From a virus: 39,349 bases of DNA. The stretch is from IMG/VR virus record IMGVR_UViG_3300017813_000001, positions 1 to 39,349 of that record; one strand, given 5' to 3'. A program made the translations under genes and the position numbers. Of the stretch, positions 1,430 through 33,914 are shown in pieces; the first letter of the stretch is position 1; every line of letters begins with the position of its first letter. The notes beneath the pieces are model-generated. The model made no database searches. It saw nothing but the letters and a program-made list of their open reading frames with translations, and had not been told where the DNA came from.

Positions 1430-3544
1430 TTACACCAGAGACTGTTGCCAGCAGATATCAGCAAGAATTGTCGCGGGCACCGGAGTGCCGGTAGTATTTG
1501 TCACCCGGAGCGTAGGGAATCTGAGCGCGGTGTCTACCCTGGGTGCTAACCCGTCTTTATGAGGACCGACCCCGGCCCAAGTAGTCACATCGACTGTTGA
1601 TGCCCCGTCTGCAGTCGATGAGTAACCGAGGCTCAAGTTAAGGCCGCTGTTGGAAACGGTCATAAACCTAGCTACTGCCGGGGTTCGCGTGTAGCCGGGG
1701 CATACGCCTATTACAATAGTTGCCCCCGCCGCGACGGTAATGATCTGTGAGAAGGCCGCGTTTCGCGTCACCGCCCCGGCACCATTTGGCGCTATTTCCT
1801 GACCAGCATAACGGATGTTCGCCGCGTAGCTTCTCGACTTAGTAAGCTGTTCTGGCGTATAGCTTATTGCCCCAACCGTAGCATTAAAAAATATCGGCTG
1901 AGCACCAATACTTTGAATAAGCATTCTCAGCTGGTGTATCTGTTGCTCAAAATCAGTATTGCTTACATTTGCGTAATAGTCATTGGTTCCAACCATAACC
2001 CAGACATAGTCAGGATTTTGTGGCGCTACGTCTAATGCGAACCTACTGATGAGCTGTGAGGCTCTATTGCCTGGAACGCCAGCACTTATAACAGTTGCCT
2101 TGTTGAGCCTAGATATAAGTCGGTTATGGAAGTCGCCTCCACTAGTAAACCAGCTATCTCCTAAAAGTACATGCTTTCCTCGGTTTAGGTTATTAAGGTA
2201 ACCGCTCACCCTATTATGCTGCATGGCGCCGATCCAAAATCTCCACGGCCCGGAATTTGGTGAGGTTATTAGAACCTTAACCATGCTGCCAGGTCTCAAC
2301 GTGTACCTTGCTTTAAAAGACCTTGCGGACCCATACGAATTTACAATTTGATTGAATACAATGGTTTCTAGATTTCCGCCGCTGGTAACTTCAATAATAC
2401 TGATATTTAGAAACCCAGTAAAATTCCCGTCACGAATGCCGGGATTTAGATAGATCACGGTTTCATAGTCACCTCCGATAAGGCTAACAAGCGAGGACTC
2501 AGCGCCTGCGCCGACTGCCGAGCTCTGCACCAACACCCCCCTTTCGCCAATAAGTCCTGCACCAGGGTTATCATAAGATGTCGTAGTGAGTGCGGTAAGC
2601 GTTGCGCCAGATACCGCTGACCAAACAGCCGCATCCTTCGCGTGATATTCAGTTCTGAATAGCCTGGCAGAAATAAGCTGACGAAGGGCGTCATCTGCGA
2701 CGGCATTGAATCCGTATTTATTGCCGTGTGCATCATCCCTGTAAAAATTATAGAGCTTTGACCCTACTGATACTTCCTTAGGCAATGGAGCAGACATTGT
2801 AAGAGTTGCGGTGCCTATCAACTTTATAACAGATGTATAATACTGGTCATCGACCGCAAGGTAGGAAATAAGCTGGCCAGGATACAGTCCTGTCGCGTTA
2901 TTTACCGTTATAGTATTTACGGTTGAGCCTGTCACCGTTTTTTCAACAATTAGCCCCGGCTCTGATCCAGTCCATCCAACTCCTTGAAGGGTGCCGAAGT
3001 GCAGATCAATCACTGCTGGTTCTAGTGAGTTGCTGTAGGTTCTATCAGTGATAGATTTTATGTCTGCGGTCTTTTGATCAACGCTTGACGATAATGCGGC
3101 AAATGCTTGCTCGATGTTTCCCTGTGTTCCAGCTCCTACGTATTTCCAGCCGTCTGGCGATGCGAGAATTTGGCGCAATGAAACGTCGCCAACGGCCTGC
3201 AGTTTCGGCGAATCTGTAGCCCAGGTACCGGTTAGCGTGAGAGGGAGGTCAGACGCATTCATGACCCGGTATAGCTCACCACTGCGCTGCACCAGTTGAG
3301 TCTGCCGAGAAACGACCACACCAGGGCCATAGGCCAAATAGACAGACTCATAACCCTGAGCTGTGAGGTAATCGGTCACCTGCTTCATGATGCCCTGCCA
3401 CGACCGCAGAGGCACGCCGAGACGGCTAAGGTACTCGCTCAGCGGGCCATTCATCAGCTTGTCGAGGATCTGAACGTTATCGATCAAATCTCGCGGGTCA
3501 GTAGAACCATTCGGCTCGACAGGATTTCCGGTGTTATAGGCCAT
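1430..3544 (-). CDS. Tail fibre/spike protein with SGNH-hydrolase domain
   Basis: 704 aa; ATG at 3544 preceded by GGGGA at good spacing. Residues 1 to about 165 look like a virion-attachment region ('NPVEPNGSTDPRDLIDNVQILDK' style N-terminus, as in many Pseudomonas phage fibres), followed by a short heptad-like linker. From about 175 it matches the neighbouring 459-aa secreted protein: a beta-rich domain, then SGNH blocks GDSW, GVPGNR and GTND. The last ~100 residues form an extra beta-rich domain absent from the paralog. Known families: SGNH/GDSL domains on phage fibres deacetylate capsule or O-antigen. No canonical D-x-x-H block V is obvious, so activity is inferred, not shown. A terminator lies just upstream, so expression may be partly uncoupled from the J gene. 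Confidence 0.75.
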   Translation of the reverse strand: MAYNTGNPVEPNGSTDPRDLIDNVQILDKLMNGPLSEYLSRLGVPLRSWQGIMKQVTDYLTAQGYESVYLAYGPGVVVSRQTQLVQRSGELYRVMNASDLPLTLTGTWATDSPKLQAVGDVSLRQILASPDGWKYVGAGTQGNIEQAFAALSSSVDQKTADIKSITDRTYSNSLEPAVIDLHFGTLQGVGWTGSEPGLIVEKTVTGSTVNTITVNNATGLYPGQLISYLAVDDQYYTSVIKLIGTATLTMSAPLPKEVSVGSKLYNFYRDDAHGNKYGFNAVADDALRQLISARLFRTEYHAKDAAVWSAVSGATLTALTTTSYDNPGAGLIGERGVLVQSSAVGAGAESSLVSLIGGDYETVIYLNPGIRDGNFTGFLNISIIEVTSGGNLETIVFNQIVNSYGSARSFKARYTLRPGSMVKVLITSPNSGPWRFWIGAMQHNRVSGYLNNLNRGKHVLLGDSWFTSGGDFHNRLISRLNKATVISAGVPGNRASQLISRFALDVAPQNPDYVWVMVGTNDYYANVSNTDFEQQIHQLRMLIQSIGAQPIFFNATVGAISYTPEQLTKSRSYAANIRYAGQEIAPNGAGAVTRNAAFSQIITVAAGATIVIGVCPGYTRTPAVARFMTVSNSGLNLSLGYSSTADGASTVDVTTWAGVGPHKDGLAPRVDTALRFPTLRVTNTTGTPVPATILADICWQQSLV

Positions 3545-3601: not shown

Positions 3602-6600
3602 TTACGCCGCAGCGGGCGGGTAGTTGTCGTCGTCTGCATAGAAAGCAGGCGAGTACTCAGTAGCGGTTACAGCGCAGGACCCGTCCTGATTCGGGGCGAT
3701 TTCGGTAATCATTGCTGGGTAGCCGACTTGCTCGCTTGGCCCGAACAGGAATCGCGCGGGCTCAATGCTAAGGTCGGTGACTATGTCGAAGTCAATTGCG
3801 GTGAGCGGGACAAGCACCTGGTGAAATCCGGCTTCCTGCGGAGCAAACAAGCTGGTGACCGTGCCGTCGTGACGGCGAACCACGGCGCGTGGCGCGACCA
3901 TCGTCCAGTCCATCTGCTCACTGAGGGTGAGCAAATACATCTCTCCCACTTGCTCGACCTCCATGATCAGGGCGCTGCTCGTGGTATTGGGTATGTCGTC
4001 GGCCAGCGTTACGTGGTCGATGTCGTCGAACACCAGAGCATCCATTTCCGTGTCGACGGTATAGCCCCAGCGGGAGAACTGGTATTTGCGCAGCTGCCTC
4101 ATCCCTATGCGCCAGGCCCTGGTTCGGTCAGAAACACCGTCCAGTTGAATCTTGTCGACCTTGAGCCCAAGGCTTCCAGGAAGCCGGCATTGCACAGTCT
4201 CCTTTCGGTTGGTGTATTGGTCGATGTATTCGACATCTACCCCGTCGAAGTCGTCAGGGCTTGGCGCAGTGAAGCTGGCCGTCAGCTCGCTGGTCATCTC
4301 GTGCGGCGTGATCACCCCGCGCGGTGGCTGAACGCCTTCACGCTTGACGCTGAGCAATCCGTTGCCACTCGAAAGGTGAGACATCCCGGCAGTGAAAATC
4401 CCCTGCAGCACCTCTCGTACTGCTGCTGGCTTCTCATGCGACATGTCATAGAGCTCGCTGCGCGGCGTCCAATAGTCCTGGTCGACCGAATTCAAAGCGT
4501 CCATATCAATGAGAGATTCATCAATCCCAAGGCTCTGGCACACGTGCAGGGCCGCGCCCTTGATTGAGCGCGCCGGCGCATTATCGTAGATCCGAGTCGG
4601 CACGCAGTTGATCTGCCGTTCGGACTGGGCGCTGAGACGGTCACCGCCACGGATATCCATGGTGATGACGGTGATGCCCTCATAGGAGCCGGGGTCAGGA
4701 AGCAGGGTGCGCAATCCATACCACTGGATGGCGTCCCGCGCTTGGCCGCCCTCGACAGGCTGAACACGCCTCATCTGAAATTCAGGCCGTAGCGGATATG
4801 GGAAAACGACGCGGTGAGTGAACCCGATCTGGTCCGGGGTCGCCTCGGTGTATGCGTGCGTGATCGTGTTCCATGCGCCGCCCACCACCGAATCTCTCCA
4901 GCGCACCTCGATAGACTTGGTGGACATCTTGATATTGCCGGATTTGCTGTAGTAGCAAAGCCCCTGGCTGAAGAAGACATCATATTCAGCCTCGGTCGCC
5001 AGCTCATATTCGGGACAACCCATGAACGAGCCGATCCAGTTTGCTGCCCCGCCGCTACCAGACATTGAAAAGTCCAGGAGAGTTCTCGCTGTGAATCCGG
5101 CCCAGGCATTGTCGACCACACCCGCGTCAGTGATTCGCTTGACAGTGGCGGTTAGGCCGGAAACGGAGACGATCTGGAATCTGTAGCCACGGTAAGCAAG
5201 GGACAGCCGCTGCTGCCCAGCAGCGATGCCGGAGAAAGGCGTACCGTTGTCAAAGCTGAGGGTGATGCTCGCAAGCTGCTCAGGCGTACCGCCGGTGGAT
5301 GCCGTCCCGACTATATAGGTTGGACCAGAGCCGAAAATCGGTACTGGCGCACTGGTCTGCGAGATCGCCCCACCTTTGTAGGGGCTCAGCGGCTCGACCA
5401 GGCGAACCCTGCCAGAGCTGTCCTGCGCCACAAGCCCGGTGCCGGAAAGCTGAGATGAGATCGTCGACACCAGGCCGCTCATGTTCACATAGTTGGTATT
5501 CAGGGAAACGGTCTTGGTGATGCCCTGGAAGGTTACGGACCAGACCACTGCGCTCGAGGTGAAGTCATAAGTGGATGGTGCGGCGCTGCCAGTCACCATG
5601 GATGGCGAACCGCCAATACCTGGCACAGGCGCAACATATGGCGCCACGCTGGCCACCACCAGATCAATCTCGGAGTCACTGCCCAGCGTCACCTTCATGC
5701 CCACAAAAGGTGCCAGATCAGAGAGTGCTCCTGCGATTCGGCTGTACGCTCCCGCGGTCGTCACAGTGAAGGTGTCGGGGGTTACTAGACGAACGACGGT
5801 TCCTGCGGCCCACGCCTCTGGAAAGCGTGGATTGTTGCCAAGCAGCGATACGGTGCTGCCGCTGATAAGCATGGAATCCGCCAAGGCTACTGACTCAGCA
5901 GGCGCTGTACTGGACAGGTCCAGGCCGGCGGTGCCTGCGTTGGTTCCACCCACCTCCGTGGCTGGGTACCAGTTCCGTGCACGAGGGTCGCCCGAAAGCG
6001 ATGCTCCAGGCTCGTAGACGGTGTAGTTGAGGTCAGACCCAAACGCCGGGAAAGGAGTGTCACCCACCTTCCACGAGCTTGGCGGTATGGCGAGCCGACC
6101 CCTGCCAACTGACATAGCCAGGGTCGTGACCATCTTCCTTTTGTCGACGAACCTGGACACTGGCGGCACGAGCAGGTCGGGATAGACCTTGGCCATGCCC
6201 AGCACCTCGCGGATAGGCGAGTTCAGCTTGGCATGGTTGCCAGTAGCTGTAGCTGCGTCCAGATCATCGCCCTGCTGCTGCTTGGCGGCCTTTGCCTTTG
6301 GCATGGTCAGGATCATAACAATCGAGATTGCCGCCAGGGCCACAGCTGCCCAGGCGGCCGCTGCTGCCCCCACAGCGCGAGCCTCCGGGAAAATTTTCAC
6401 GTCTGTGTCGACATCAATAACGGTCAACGGCCACTCAGAAACAGGAACTACGACACCCTCTACCTCAATGCAGATGGGATGAACCGCGTCAATTTCGAAG
6501 CCCTTTGCGTTCTCAGACAGCCACCCAGCCAGGGTTGTCTGCTCTTTGACGTGATGGCTTTCCAGCGGCAAACAGTCGCCCTCTTTGACGCCAATTCGGG

Positions 6601-31015: not shown

Positions 31016-31222
31016 TTAAGCGGCTGATTTTTTAAGCTGGTTTTGGCTCGGGAACGGGCGAACCTCTTCGGCATGAAAGGTGCCGTCCGATGCCTCGGTC
31101 ACGAAAATGTCCCGGCCAACCCTGAGTGCTTTGTTCAGCGCACCCTGGGACATACCGAGCAACTGAGCGGCCTTGGTTTGGCCCTTGCTGATAGCGAACT
31201 GATTGAGAGTGATTCGGCTCAT
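31016..31222 (-). CDS. cro: Cro-like repressor
   Basis: 68 aa from ATG 31222, with GGAG eight bases upstream (a 24-base-longer start at 31246 lacks a ribosome site). 'RITLNQFAISKGQTKAAQLLGMSQGALNKALRVGRDIFV' followed by 'DGTFHAEEVRPFPSQNQ' parallels lambda Cro ('[28 protein letters not shown]', 'AEEVKPFPS'). Divergent from cI. Its ribosome site overlaps operator site a, so binding could also affect its own translation start. Confidence 0.92.
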   Translation of the reverse strand: MSRITLNQFAISKGQTKAAQLLGMSQGALNKALRVGRDIFVTEASDGTFHAEEVRPFPSQNQLKKSAA

Positions 31223-31228
31223 GGCCAT

Positions 31229-31317
31229 ATCTCCATTGGCATTCATGCGGGCAGATTATCTCCCATGGAGATACTTTGCAACTCCAATGGAGATGGTTAA
31301 CTATTTCCAGTGGGAAT
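31229..31317. promoter_or_regulatory. OR-type operator with four CI/Cro sites and promoters PR and PRM
   Basis: Four 15-bp sites of form ATCTCC-NNN-GGAGAT: a 31229-31243 (right arm degenerate), b 31258-31272 (perfect), c 31280-31294, d 31303-31317 (ATTTCC/GGGAAT). Centres are 29, 22 and 23 bases apart. On the minus strand TTGCAA (31276-31281), a 17-base spacer and TAATCT (31253-31258) form PR, covered by b and c. On the plus strand TATTCT at 31317-31322 could be the PRM -10. Confidence 0.82.
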
Positions 31318-31328
31318 ATTCTTGCGAA

Positions 31329-32120
31329 ATGAATAAAGAAAGACGCCAATTGCTTGATTGGGAGCGGGAAGAGTGCGCGGCCTTGAAAAAGGCAATTGCG
31401 GACTTCAATGCCTCGCGCCCTAAGGACAAACGCCTGACCCAGGATGAGATCGCTCACACTGTCGGTATGAGTCAGGGGACACTTGGTAGCCATCTGAATG
31501 GACATCGACCCCTCACACAGAAGCTTGCTGTTTCTATGGCCGAAATGCTGGGCGTGCCGATTGGCTCTTTCAGCAAGCGCATCGAGGACGACATAGGCCG
31601 CATGGCTTCGGCTGCAGGCTTGAGTCATGCGCCGGCCGCCCCAGATGCGGATAGCCGCACCCCCCCGCGCAGCTTCGATCTGAACGACGAATCCGGCTAC
31701 ACCGGCGTCCTGCAACTGACGGCGCGCGGGTCAACCGGCGACGGGGACGACAACCCACACGTCGAGATCCGCGGTGTCATGGCGTTTAAGTCGGCCTGGC
31801 TGCGCGCAAATAACCTCAACCAGAAGAACCTGGACGTGATCTATGCGAACGGGCACAGCATGGAGCCAACCATCAATGACGGCGACGTGCTGCTGGTTGA
31901 TGAATCAAGAGTGGAACCGAAGGACGGCCAGATATTCGCCATGCAGAGCGAATCAAAGGGCACGATCGTAAAGCGCCTGGTGAAGTCAGACTTCGACGGC
32001 TGGATCATCCGCAGCGACAACCCGGACAAGGCGCGCTATGGCGACGAGACCCTGCGTGACGGTGAGATAAACGAGGTCCGCATTATTGGACGTGTTGTCT
32101 GGCGCGGCGGGATGTTATAG
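31329..32120 (+). CDS. cI: CI-type repressor (HTH plus S24 peptidase)
   Basis: 263 aa from ATG 31329; upstream in-frame ATGs run through the operators. Helix-turn-helix in 'RLTQDEIAHTVGMSQGTLGSHLNGHRPLT' (residues 35-63). Ala96-Gly97 is a likely self-cleavage site. The C-terminal S24 domain has Ser177 in 'GHSMEPTI' and Lys215 in 'TIVKRLV'. No ribosome site precedes the ATG, and a -10-like TATTCT ends seven bases before it, so the message may be leaderless as in lambda PRM. Holds lysogeny; RecA-stimulated cleavage expected. Confidence 0.93.
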   Translation: MNKERRQLLDWEREECAALKKAIADFNASRPKDKRLTQDEIAHTVGMSQGTLGSHLNGHRPLTQKLAVSMAEMLGVPIGSFSKRIEDDIGRMASAAGLSHAPAAPDADSRTPPRSFDLNDESGYTGVLQLTARGSTGDGDDNPHVEIRGVMAFKSAWLRANNLNQKNLDVIYANGHSMEPTINDGDVLLVDESRVEPKDGQIFAMQSESKGTIVKRLVKSDFDGWIIRSDNPDKARYGDETLRDGEINEVRIIGRVVWRGGML

Positions 32121-32169: not shown

Positions 32170-32493
32170 ATGACGCATGACACTACAGAAGTCAGCCTCA
32201 GTGCGAACGGCCAGACCTCCCGAGATGACAACCCGGCGCTGAAGGTTCCCGTTGAGGCCGTCGTTGACTACCTGAACAGAGTTAACAAAGACAGCAAGTG
32301 CACATTTTGTAACACTGGAGACTACGGGGTTATTCCATCTCCGTCTGGCGGCACTGCCTCAGTGGTTGCGGCTCCAGTTCCCAACATTCAGCACCTTGGC
32401 GTGTGGTTTTTTCTCGCAACGTGCATGGATTGCGGCCACACCATCTTCTTCAATGCTCGGCATGTGCTTGCGAAAATGCGGAATGGACGATGA
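32170..32493 (+). CDS. Rex-position gene 1: zinc-ribbon protein
   Basis: 107 aa; AAGGATG ribosome site. C44-x2-C47 ('CTFC') and C85-x2-C88 ('CMDC') frame one zinc ribbon, with 'GVWFFLATCMDCGHTIFF' reading like a ribbon strand-knuckle-strand. First of three overlapping genes after cI, so expressed in the lysogen. The base composition of this trio is visibly more AT-rich than the structural genes. No named family recognised; candidate superinfection-exclusion or defence component by position. Confidence 0.75.
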   Translation: MTHDTTEVSLSANGQTSRDDNPALKVPVEAVVDYLNRVNKDSKCTFCNTGDYGVIPSPSGGTASVVAAPVPNIQHLGVWFFLATCMDCGHTIFFNARHVLAKMRNGR

Positions 32494-32897
32494 TGGCGAC
32501 AGCAATCAAACCTTATGACTATTATGATTTCATGGGTGAGGCGTTTTGCCTGACTCAGGACGTAATCTGCACCGTGACTACGGATTTCTTTTTCACTGAA
32601 AACATTGACGCATCAGTGATGTCTGAAAAAACGTTACCGGTGAGTTATGTGTACACTCATCAAATCGCAACCATCTGCTTTCAAAAAATGGAGGGAGCAA
32701 TGCGAGTTCTACTCAAGTACGACCTTCAAGACATTCCCGTGATGCTCGGCACTGCAACCTTTGTAGGTTCGGTTGCTGGAGTTTTGTGGGGACTTACATC
32801 AACGTCCACCACTCCAGCCGCGCTGACCATTTCGGCGGCGGTCGCTGGTCTATTTTTGGGCCGCCTTGTCTCTGAGAAGGCAAAGGTAGAAAAATGA
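32490..32897 (+). CDS. Rex-position gene 2: two-helix membrane protein
   Basis: 135 aa from ATG 32490 (ATGA overlap with gene 1). Soluble N-terminus of about 80 residues with several Cys/Tyr/Phe, then two membrane helices at about 84-101 ('VMLGTATFVGSVAGVLWG') and 109-126 ('PAALTISAAVAGLFLGRL'), ending in a basic 'SEKAKVEK' tail. No family recognised. May pair with gene 3 in the membrane. Confidence 0.72.
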   Translation: MMATAIKPYDYYDFMGEAFCLTQDVICTVTTDFFFTENIDASVMSEKTLPVSYVYTHQIATICFQKMEGAMRVLLKYDLQDIPVMLGTATFVGSVAGVLWGLTSTSTTPAALTISAAVAGLFLGRLVSEKAKVEK

Positions 32898-33202
32898 CGG
32901 CCGATGAAGCTTTTCTCTGGTACTTCGCTCACCTTCAGCCAATAAATATCGCGGCTGGCACACTTGCATGCCTTTTCTCTTTTTTTAAGCGAAGCGGGGT
33001 CGAGGCGCACGCTATTGATTCGATTGCGAAGGGAGCGACCTTCTGCTCCCTTCCGAGCGGAATTGCGTTTTTGCTATGCGCGGCCCATCCCGCATATGTA
33101 CCTAAAATCTCCGACGCAAGCCTGGCGTTCTTCGTGGGCGGCCTAGCGCTCCTGCTTATCCCCTTTTTAGACATGCGCAAACTATTCGCACCATCTCCAT
33201 AA
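32894..33202 (+). CDS. Rex-position gene 3: small membrane protein
   Basis: 102 aa, ATGA overlap with gene 2. Hydrophobic segments at about 17-32, 48-64 and 74-92 ('DASLAFFVGGLALLLIPFLD'). Like lambda RexB it is a multi-helix membrane protein at the end of the cI operon, but no sequence similarity to RexB is seen. Followed by a terminator 22 bases on. Confidence 0.72.
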   Translation: MTADEAFLWYFAHLQPINIAAGTLACLFSFFKRSGVEAHAIDSIAKGATFCSLPSGIAFLLCAAHPAYVPKISDASLAFFVGGLALLLIPFLDMRKLFAPSP

Positions 33203-33223
33203 TTCGCGAAGTCGCTGTCGCAG

Positions 33224-33249
33224 AAGCCCGCCATTGAGCGGGCTTTTTT
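33224..33249 (+). terminator. Terminator of the cI-rex-position operon
   Basis: AAGCCCGC, loop CATTGA, GCGGGCTT and a T run. Closes the immunity operon just before the left operator. Same stem as the terminator at 3560-3587. Confidence 0.88.
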
Positions 33250-33267: not shown

Positions 33268-33324
33268 ATCTCCATTGGAGTTGACATGAATATTTCCATA
33301 GGAGATATTAGCTCCATCGAGTCA
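33268..33324 (+). promoter_or_regulatory. PL promoter with OL-type operator sites
   Basis: TTGACA at 33281-33286, 17-base spacer, GATATT at 33304-33309. Three operator-like sites overlap it: ATCTCC-ATT-GGAGTT (33268-33282), ATTTCC-ATA-GGAGAT (33292-33306) and a weak AGCTCC-ATC-GAGTCA (33310-33324). Matches the OR sites, so CI and Cro should control both operons. Confidence 0.85.
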
Positions 33325-33554: not shown

Positions 33555-33914
33555 ATGCCGAAGAAAGTCTACCGATGTGGCGATTGTGGAGAAGTTCACG
33601 GCTCGCATTGGGATGCCGAGCGCTGCTGCATGCCGACTCCAATGGAGGGCTGGGTTTGCCCTGTATGTGACGAGGTCTGCGACGACGAAGACGAAGCAGA
33701 AAGGTGCTGCGCCTCGGTAAGCCCCGAAGGCGAACTGGTGACCTGCCCCAACTGCTTCCGCGACCACGACGAGGTTGCTCATCAGGCGGAAGTACAGGTC
33801 GCCGGGCACTGCTCAGTATGCAACCCGGCATTCAGTGTCGATGAGGACTTCAAAATCCACGACATCGTCGCCGAGCATGCTCACGATCACGCAATGAAGC
33901 TGGCCGGCTGGTAG
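33555..33914 (+). CDS. Multi-CxxC zinc-binding protein
   Basis: 119 aa from ATG 33555, right after GGAGGGC. Cys pairs C8/C11, C24/C25, C35/C38, C51/C52, C64/C67, C86/C89 plus C42, so two to three zinc sites are likely. Acidic overall ('CDDEDEAERCC'). First coding gene of the early left operon; no family name recognised. Confidence 0.72.
   Translation: MPKKVYRCGDCGEVHGSHWDAERCCMPTPMEGWVCPVCDEVCDDEDEAERCCASVSPEGELVTCPNCFRDHDEVAHQAEVQVAGHCSVCNPAFSVDEDFKIHDIVAEHAHDHAMKLAGW

Follow-up and report, generated by a model that had tools for sequence, protein, structure and literature searches.

A zinc-ribbon and membrane-protein gene trio in the rexAB position of Pseudomonas prophages and its possible role in phage exclusion

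Ever since rexAB, the gene pair adjoining a lambda-type repressor has been difficult to explain. The locus studied here, in Pseudomonas prophage DNA, raises the same question with three genes: what do orf1, orf2 and orf3, which follow the repressor gene, do in the lysogen? We analysed the whole stretch of DNA (39,349 nt, referred to here as the window), in which the block order is cro-OR-cI-orf1-orf2-orf3-terminator-OL/PL. The original prediction was a candidate exclusion system in the rexAB position, composed of a zinc-ribbon protein, a two-helix and a multi-helix membrane protein.

We identified a cI-type repressor of 263 aa (31329..32120, plus strand) by profile matches to Peptidase_S24 (7e-16), to HTH_3 and to a PHROG transcriptional repressor (9e-38). 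The divergent gene on the minus strand (31016..31246) is probably a cro-like repressor gene, based on its position and on its sequence, judged by eye. Three ATCTCCATTGGAGAT-type sites between cro and cI form an OR-like right operator region (31229..31294). Two further sites form an OL-like left region (33268..33306) that overlaps a promoter-like element found by sequence scan (PL, TTGACA-17-GATATT, 33281-33309). Such sites are confined to 31229-31294 and 33268-33306, i.e., to both flanks of the cI-trio block, and their nine strand-matches (0.78 expected) were reached in 0 of 100 shuffles. The trio lies on the plus strand, as does cI, with orf1 (32170..32493) starting 49 bp downstream of cI and followed by orf2 (32490..32897) and orf3 (32894..33202). 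The intrinsic terminator ending the operon (33222..33247, plus strand) consists of a 10-pair hairpin and the U's that come after it, with a folding statistic of z -2.76, although it was absent from the output of a simple terminator scan. Operators on both flanks, cI upstream and the terminator give the arrangement of the lambda immunity region, except that the trio replaces rexAB between cI and OL/PL and on the strand of cI.

Thus, the rexAB position assigned earlier, directly after cI and before a terminator and PL, is confirmed. So are the head-to-tail overlaps (ATGA at both the orf1/orf2 and the orf2/orf3 junction), and the operon layout continues from cI. The AT-rich composition attributed to these genes was also found: their GC content is 51.1%, compared to 58.6% overall, and falls within the lowest 5% of equal windows, though it is not the record minimum. 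The lowest-GC stretch (45.8%, near 1850) is at 1800-2900, inside the gene at 1430-3544 at the tail-gene end, and is a candidate foreign insertion. The product of the first gene past PL (33555-33914) is rich in CxxC-type cysteine pairs, and what appears by eye to be a relative of this protein is encoded after the same type of block in L024 (9268-9627).

Orf1 (107 aa, CxxC...CxxCG) belongs with the phrog_4293 zinc ribbons by a significant profile match (E 1.2e-6) and by the conserved CxxC...CxxC; this family has no recorded function or partner. In an alignment of 13 diverse homologues the sole invariant residues are M1 and the four cysteines, and we infer from the sequence that Orf1 binds zinc. 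The structural model (pLDDT 74) has a disordered N-terminus, a helix at 28-38, a four-strand ribbon and a C-terminal helix. Fold searches with this model returned only weak resemblance, to the zinc ribbons of MqsA, NrdR, RNA polymerase subunits and RNase P or to beta-barrels, and no match with Z of 5 or more. The Orf1 profile had no match among PDB sequences. Nucleic acid and RNA polymerase are frequent binding partners of zinc ribbons.

The long form of Orf2 (135 aa) consists of about 70 fast-changing residues followed by two hydrophobic helices with a lysine-rich end. Hydropathy indicates that both helices are transmembrane, and AlphaFold places them at 81-103 and 110-134, in a model that is poor overall (pLDDT 55) and not confident for the N-terminal domain. 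The possibility that the N-terminal region is non-coding was rejected: it is open and in frame, and in most comparisons the rate of amino-acid change lies below the synonymous rate. Orf3 (102 aa), an integral membrane protein by hydropathy and alignment, contains roughly three hydrophobic segments as well as a conserved stretch (LPxGxAFxxC...K(I/L)xDxSxAF). The charge distribution suggests that its basic loop and C-terminus are in the cytoplasm. No family was found for any trio protein in Pfam, NCBIfam or PADLOC (the last searched at E up to 1). Likewise, tblastn gave no match for Orf2 and Orf3 in phage records or for an Orf3 relative in plasmids. The four invariant cysteines and the hydrophobic segments bear out the proposed zinc ribbon with membrane partners, as well as the multi-helix nature of Orf3. 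The "two-helix" description holds for the C-terminal half of Orf2 and leaves out the N-terminal region. The statement that no known family is represented stands for named families in these libraries, but the phrog_4293 match of Orf1 had been missed.

In searches begun with Orf1, seven further Pseudomonas prophages showed this trio of genes in unchanged order after a repressor (genomes L020, L021 and L022; viral contigs L036, L037, L038 and L042), where the repressor is degraded in L020 and was read as a fragment only in L037. Searches with Orf3 only gave seven strong matches, six of which are trios. A chance association can be rejected, given the recurrence of the order at seven other loci and the return of Orf3 searches to trios. 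Amino-acid changes are suppressed relative to synonymous changes in orf1, in the transmembrane part of orf2 and in orf3, indicating purifying selection; the N-terminal part of orf2 (orf2N) changes fastest and is near neutral in one pair. Three subtypes can be distinguished: the window; L021, L022, L038 and L042; and L020, L036 and L037. Between the window and L022 or L038, the C-terminal 150 aa of cI are 75-76% identical, whereas the trio proteins are 41-53% and orf2N 26-35% identical. Since cI is here more alike than the trio proteins, and since the L036 trio accompanies a different cI type, we conclude that the cassette has been exchanged independently of cI. The search for homologous trios in other prophages, put forward with the original prediction, has been productive, and the idea of separate acquisition is supported. 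The remaining Orf3 match (L039, 6243-6888) is an orf2-orf3 pair that lacks orf1 and the internal ATG described below, adjoins an Rz-like lysis gene near mutS, and is a probable prophage remnant. Apart from this remnant, the trio form was found solely in the post-repressor slot.

Where the N-terminal region of Orf2 gives way to the first helix, all eight trios have a Met codon preceded by GGAGG or AGGAGG, a start overlooked in the original prediction. In the window, the internal Shine-Dalgarno GGAGG is at 32690..32694 (plus strand), a position kept in 8 of 8 trios. The duplex energy with the anti-Shine-Dalgarno sequence is -9.8 to -11.6 kcal/mol, which places this start in the top 0.4-1.7% among the 1198 ATGs in the window. 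By this measure it exceeds the orf2 start (-3.0 to -8.3), and no other start measured in the trio operons is stronger. The motif is encoded by different codons in the three subtypes (M-E-G-A, R-R-K-I and R-R-A-G-F), so it is the nucleotide signal that is conserved, not the residues. Because this internal start is conserved in all eight trios with a very strong Shine-Dalgarno, a short two-helix product is predicted. A membrane hairpin of 65-67 aa (65 aa in the window, 32700..32897, plus strand) is probably made besides the long form and probably in excess of it. The product of the internal start of sieB in P22 and lambda is Esc. The distinct peptides and translational switch of P22 sieB (PMC13397905) provide an earlier example of a membrane exclusion protein with regulatory long and short forms.

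Relatives of Orf1 extend well beyond the trios. A scan of viral_contigs with the single Orf1 protein gave no match, but alignment-based queries did find relatives, and zinc-ribbon relatives are present in 29 of the 398 Pseudomonas genomes drawn. The distant zinc ribbons (L023-L029) are related to the near set (hhalign 99.1%), and Orf1 and its distant relatives match phrog_4293 with E values of 3e-6 to 7e-10. An S24 repressor is encoded within ~1.5 kb upstream at 16 of the 29 loci. The gene directly downstream, usually with an overlap of a few bases, encodes a membrane-helix protein at 23 or more of the 29; the helix threshold missed L044, L061 and L063, where the partners look membrane-bound too. 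Typically, the partner is a coiled coil with a C-terminal anchor. A two-gene branch without orf3 (Aurca01 L001, L006, L007, L008 and L040; orf3 absence seen in the contigs of L006, L007 and L040) has Orf1 proteins 46-59% identical, an Orf2-like protein with a single membrane helix and a long coiled coil, and a weaker internal start signal (-5.4 to -7.4). The zinc ribbon is the most widely retained part, whereas the membrane partner varies between loci. In Yersinia phage vB_YenM_30.14 (L004, 3887-4886), the gene directly after cI encodes a zinc ribbon with 27% identity, and the next two encode soluble proteins, the second being phrog_5954.

A gene for a protein of ~79 aa is often found between cI and the zinc-ribbon gene of other Pseudomonas prophages (L023 3790-4029, phrog_6388; L008 ~5637-5915; L028 7330-7563; L037 3364-3603). 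A few zinc-ribbon relatives with small membrane partners lie outside a recognisable prophage or repressor context. In L047 and L051, a gene that by eye resembles those of Tae4-type amidases adjoins the zinc-ribbon and small membrane-protein genes; the pair thus extends beyond prophages.

The conserved soluble protein, the exchangeable small membrane partners, the slot that cI transcription in the lysogen would reach and the precedents together favour Rex-like exclusion. Experimentally tested precedents in or close to this slot are lambda RexAB, RexABpp of P. putida and CarolAnn gp44/gp43; Sbash gp30/gp31 is a further one. We estimate a probability of roughly 45% that the trio is a lysogen-expressed prophage exclusion cassette, RexAB-like in working and built from other proteins. 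More tentatively, the zinc-ribbon loci may constitute a new prophage exclusion family, sequence-unrelated to RexAB, that pairs a zinc-ribbon sensor with interchangeable effectors in the membrane. Within the trio branch, a single gene would give rise to a regulated long form and a two-helix effector, and a holin/antiholin-like or SieB/Esc-like balance would set the trigger. The promoter that maintains cI would also transcribe orf1-orf2-orf3 in the lysogen. Orf1 may act as a soluble sensor or adaptor, docked onto the membrane by contact with the N-terminal part of long Orf2. Short Orf2 and Orf3 would form the membrane effector, silenced by the Orf1/long-Orf2 arm. If a protein or nucleoprotein of a foreign phage disturbed this arm, the membrane complex could open as a pore, and the resulting depolarisation would abort the infection.

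The post-cI slot does attract defence-type genes: in Pseudomonas phage phita81A (L003, 4617-5908), which has a related cI, it holds the PADLOC candidate defence pair PDC-M24A/B (DUF6978 and DUF1828). However, location after cI does not by itself make a gene a defence gene, because two genes between cI and rexAB in a P. putida prophage can be deleted and defence against the phages tested is kept (PMC12894663). Against Rex-like exclusion are also the absence of a PADLOC match to the trio and the occurrence of the pair form outside recognisable repressor contexts, where no prophage-exclusion role is needed. In the literature searched, we found neither a zinc-ribbon prophage exclusion system nor an experiment or published test of the zinc-ribbon family, and the zinc-ribbon/membrane family itself appears to be undescribed there.

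The variable membrane partner is also compatible with exclusion at DNA entry, in which Orf2 and Orf3 in the inner membrane block the DNA of related phages in the manner of P22 SieA, the cell survives, and Orf1 stabilises or times them. The proteins are small and lack an enzyme domain, the roughly three helices of Orf3 agree with the number predicted for SieA (PMC10883804), and the fast change of orf2N fits an arms race over entry proteins. However, SieA is partner-independent, necessary and sufficient (PMC10883804), whereas here the zinc ribbon is most kept and the membrane partner changes, and we regard this explanation as unlikely.

Lysogenic conversion for an envelope, stress or competition phenotype other than defence would account for the zinc-ribbon relatives with small membrane partners outside a prophage context, one of them beside the Tae4-like gene. 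This seems quite improbable for the trio form, which, bar the one orf2-orf3 remnant, is confined to the post-repressor slot.

It is similarly improbable that the trio is a toxin-antitoxin addiction module stabilising the prophage, with short Orf2 and/or Orf3 as a small membrane toxin and Orf1 as its antitoxin. A soluble first gene, small membrane proteins next and ATGA coupling have the expected arrangement, and the zinc domain of antitoxin MqsA is the top-ranked PDB match of the Orf1 model, though not a significant one (E 0.17). But Orf1 has no detected DNA-binding domain, the trio has no TA family match, and the layout would tie transcription to cI rather than to autoregulation. An MqsA-type identity of Orf1 was rejected, as the protein ends after the zinc ribbon, without an HTH match, and the fold match is not significant.

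Least probable is that Orf1 tunes the CI/Cro decision, with exclusion secondary, as proposed for lambda RexA: tight coupling to cI, the weak structural similarity between the Orf1 model and zinc ribbons of the transcription type and the effect of RexA in favouring the lytic state (PMC11077077) are consistent with this, but it leaves the conserved membrane partners unexplained, and the cassette moves between different cI types.

Pseudomonas prophages thus fill the rexAB slot with an undescribed, widespread module of zinc-ribbon and membrane proteins, whose exchange is independent of that of the repressor. Were it to exclude phages, PADLOC would be missing a defence family in a genus of use to phage therapy and biotechnology. 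The two conserved starts of orf2 suggest, in a directly testable way, how a small membrane effector might be silenced.

The trio resembles lambda RexAB in its position between cI and OL, in its expected co-transcription with cI and in encoding a soluble protein and then small membrane protein(s). The components differ: RexA has 279 aa, whereas Orf1 is a 107-aa zinc ribbon, and the trio comprises three genes with a predicted fourth product. Orf1 gave no match to DUF4747 or phrog_12654 and a BLASTP E value of 0.38 against lambda RexA. Orf2 and Orf3 gave no match to phrog_14878 and hhalign probabilities of 0.3% and 0.2% against lambda RexB. Lambda RexA and RexB were both detected by the same PHROGs library. 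Set beside the four transmembrane helices of a RexAB effector, the hydropathy counts are two for Orf2 and about three for Orf3. True RexAB membership is therefore rejected by sequence, and the trio is at most RexAB-like in working.

Among other systems, phrog_4293 is matched by Orf1 and its distant relatives, although the family entry offers no partner for comparison. SieB/Esc and P22 SieA are likewise small prophage membrane exclusion proteins, but by description those systems lack a zinc ribbon and orf3. Sbash gp30/gp31 and CarolAnn gp44/gp43, the latter co-expressed with its repressor, are similar as two-component prophage defences with a membrane effector (PMC6426596); gp30, however, carries the DUF4747 not matched by Orf1. 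RexABpp (PP_5643-5644) of a P. putida prophage combines a soluble activator with a 4-TM effector that damages membranes (PMC12894663). Compared by description, RexApp differs from Orf1 as a DNA-binding RexA homologue, and RexBpp has four transmembrane helices and more than 180 aa. RexABpp and the trio share a Pseudomonas prophage, a location downstream of cI, and the combination of a soluble with a multi-helix membrane protein.
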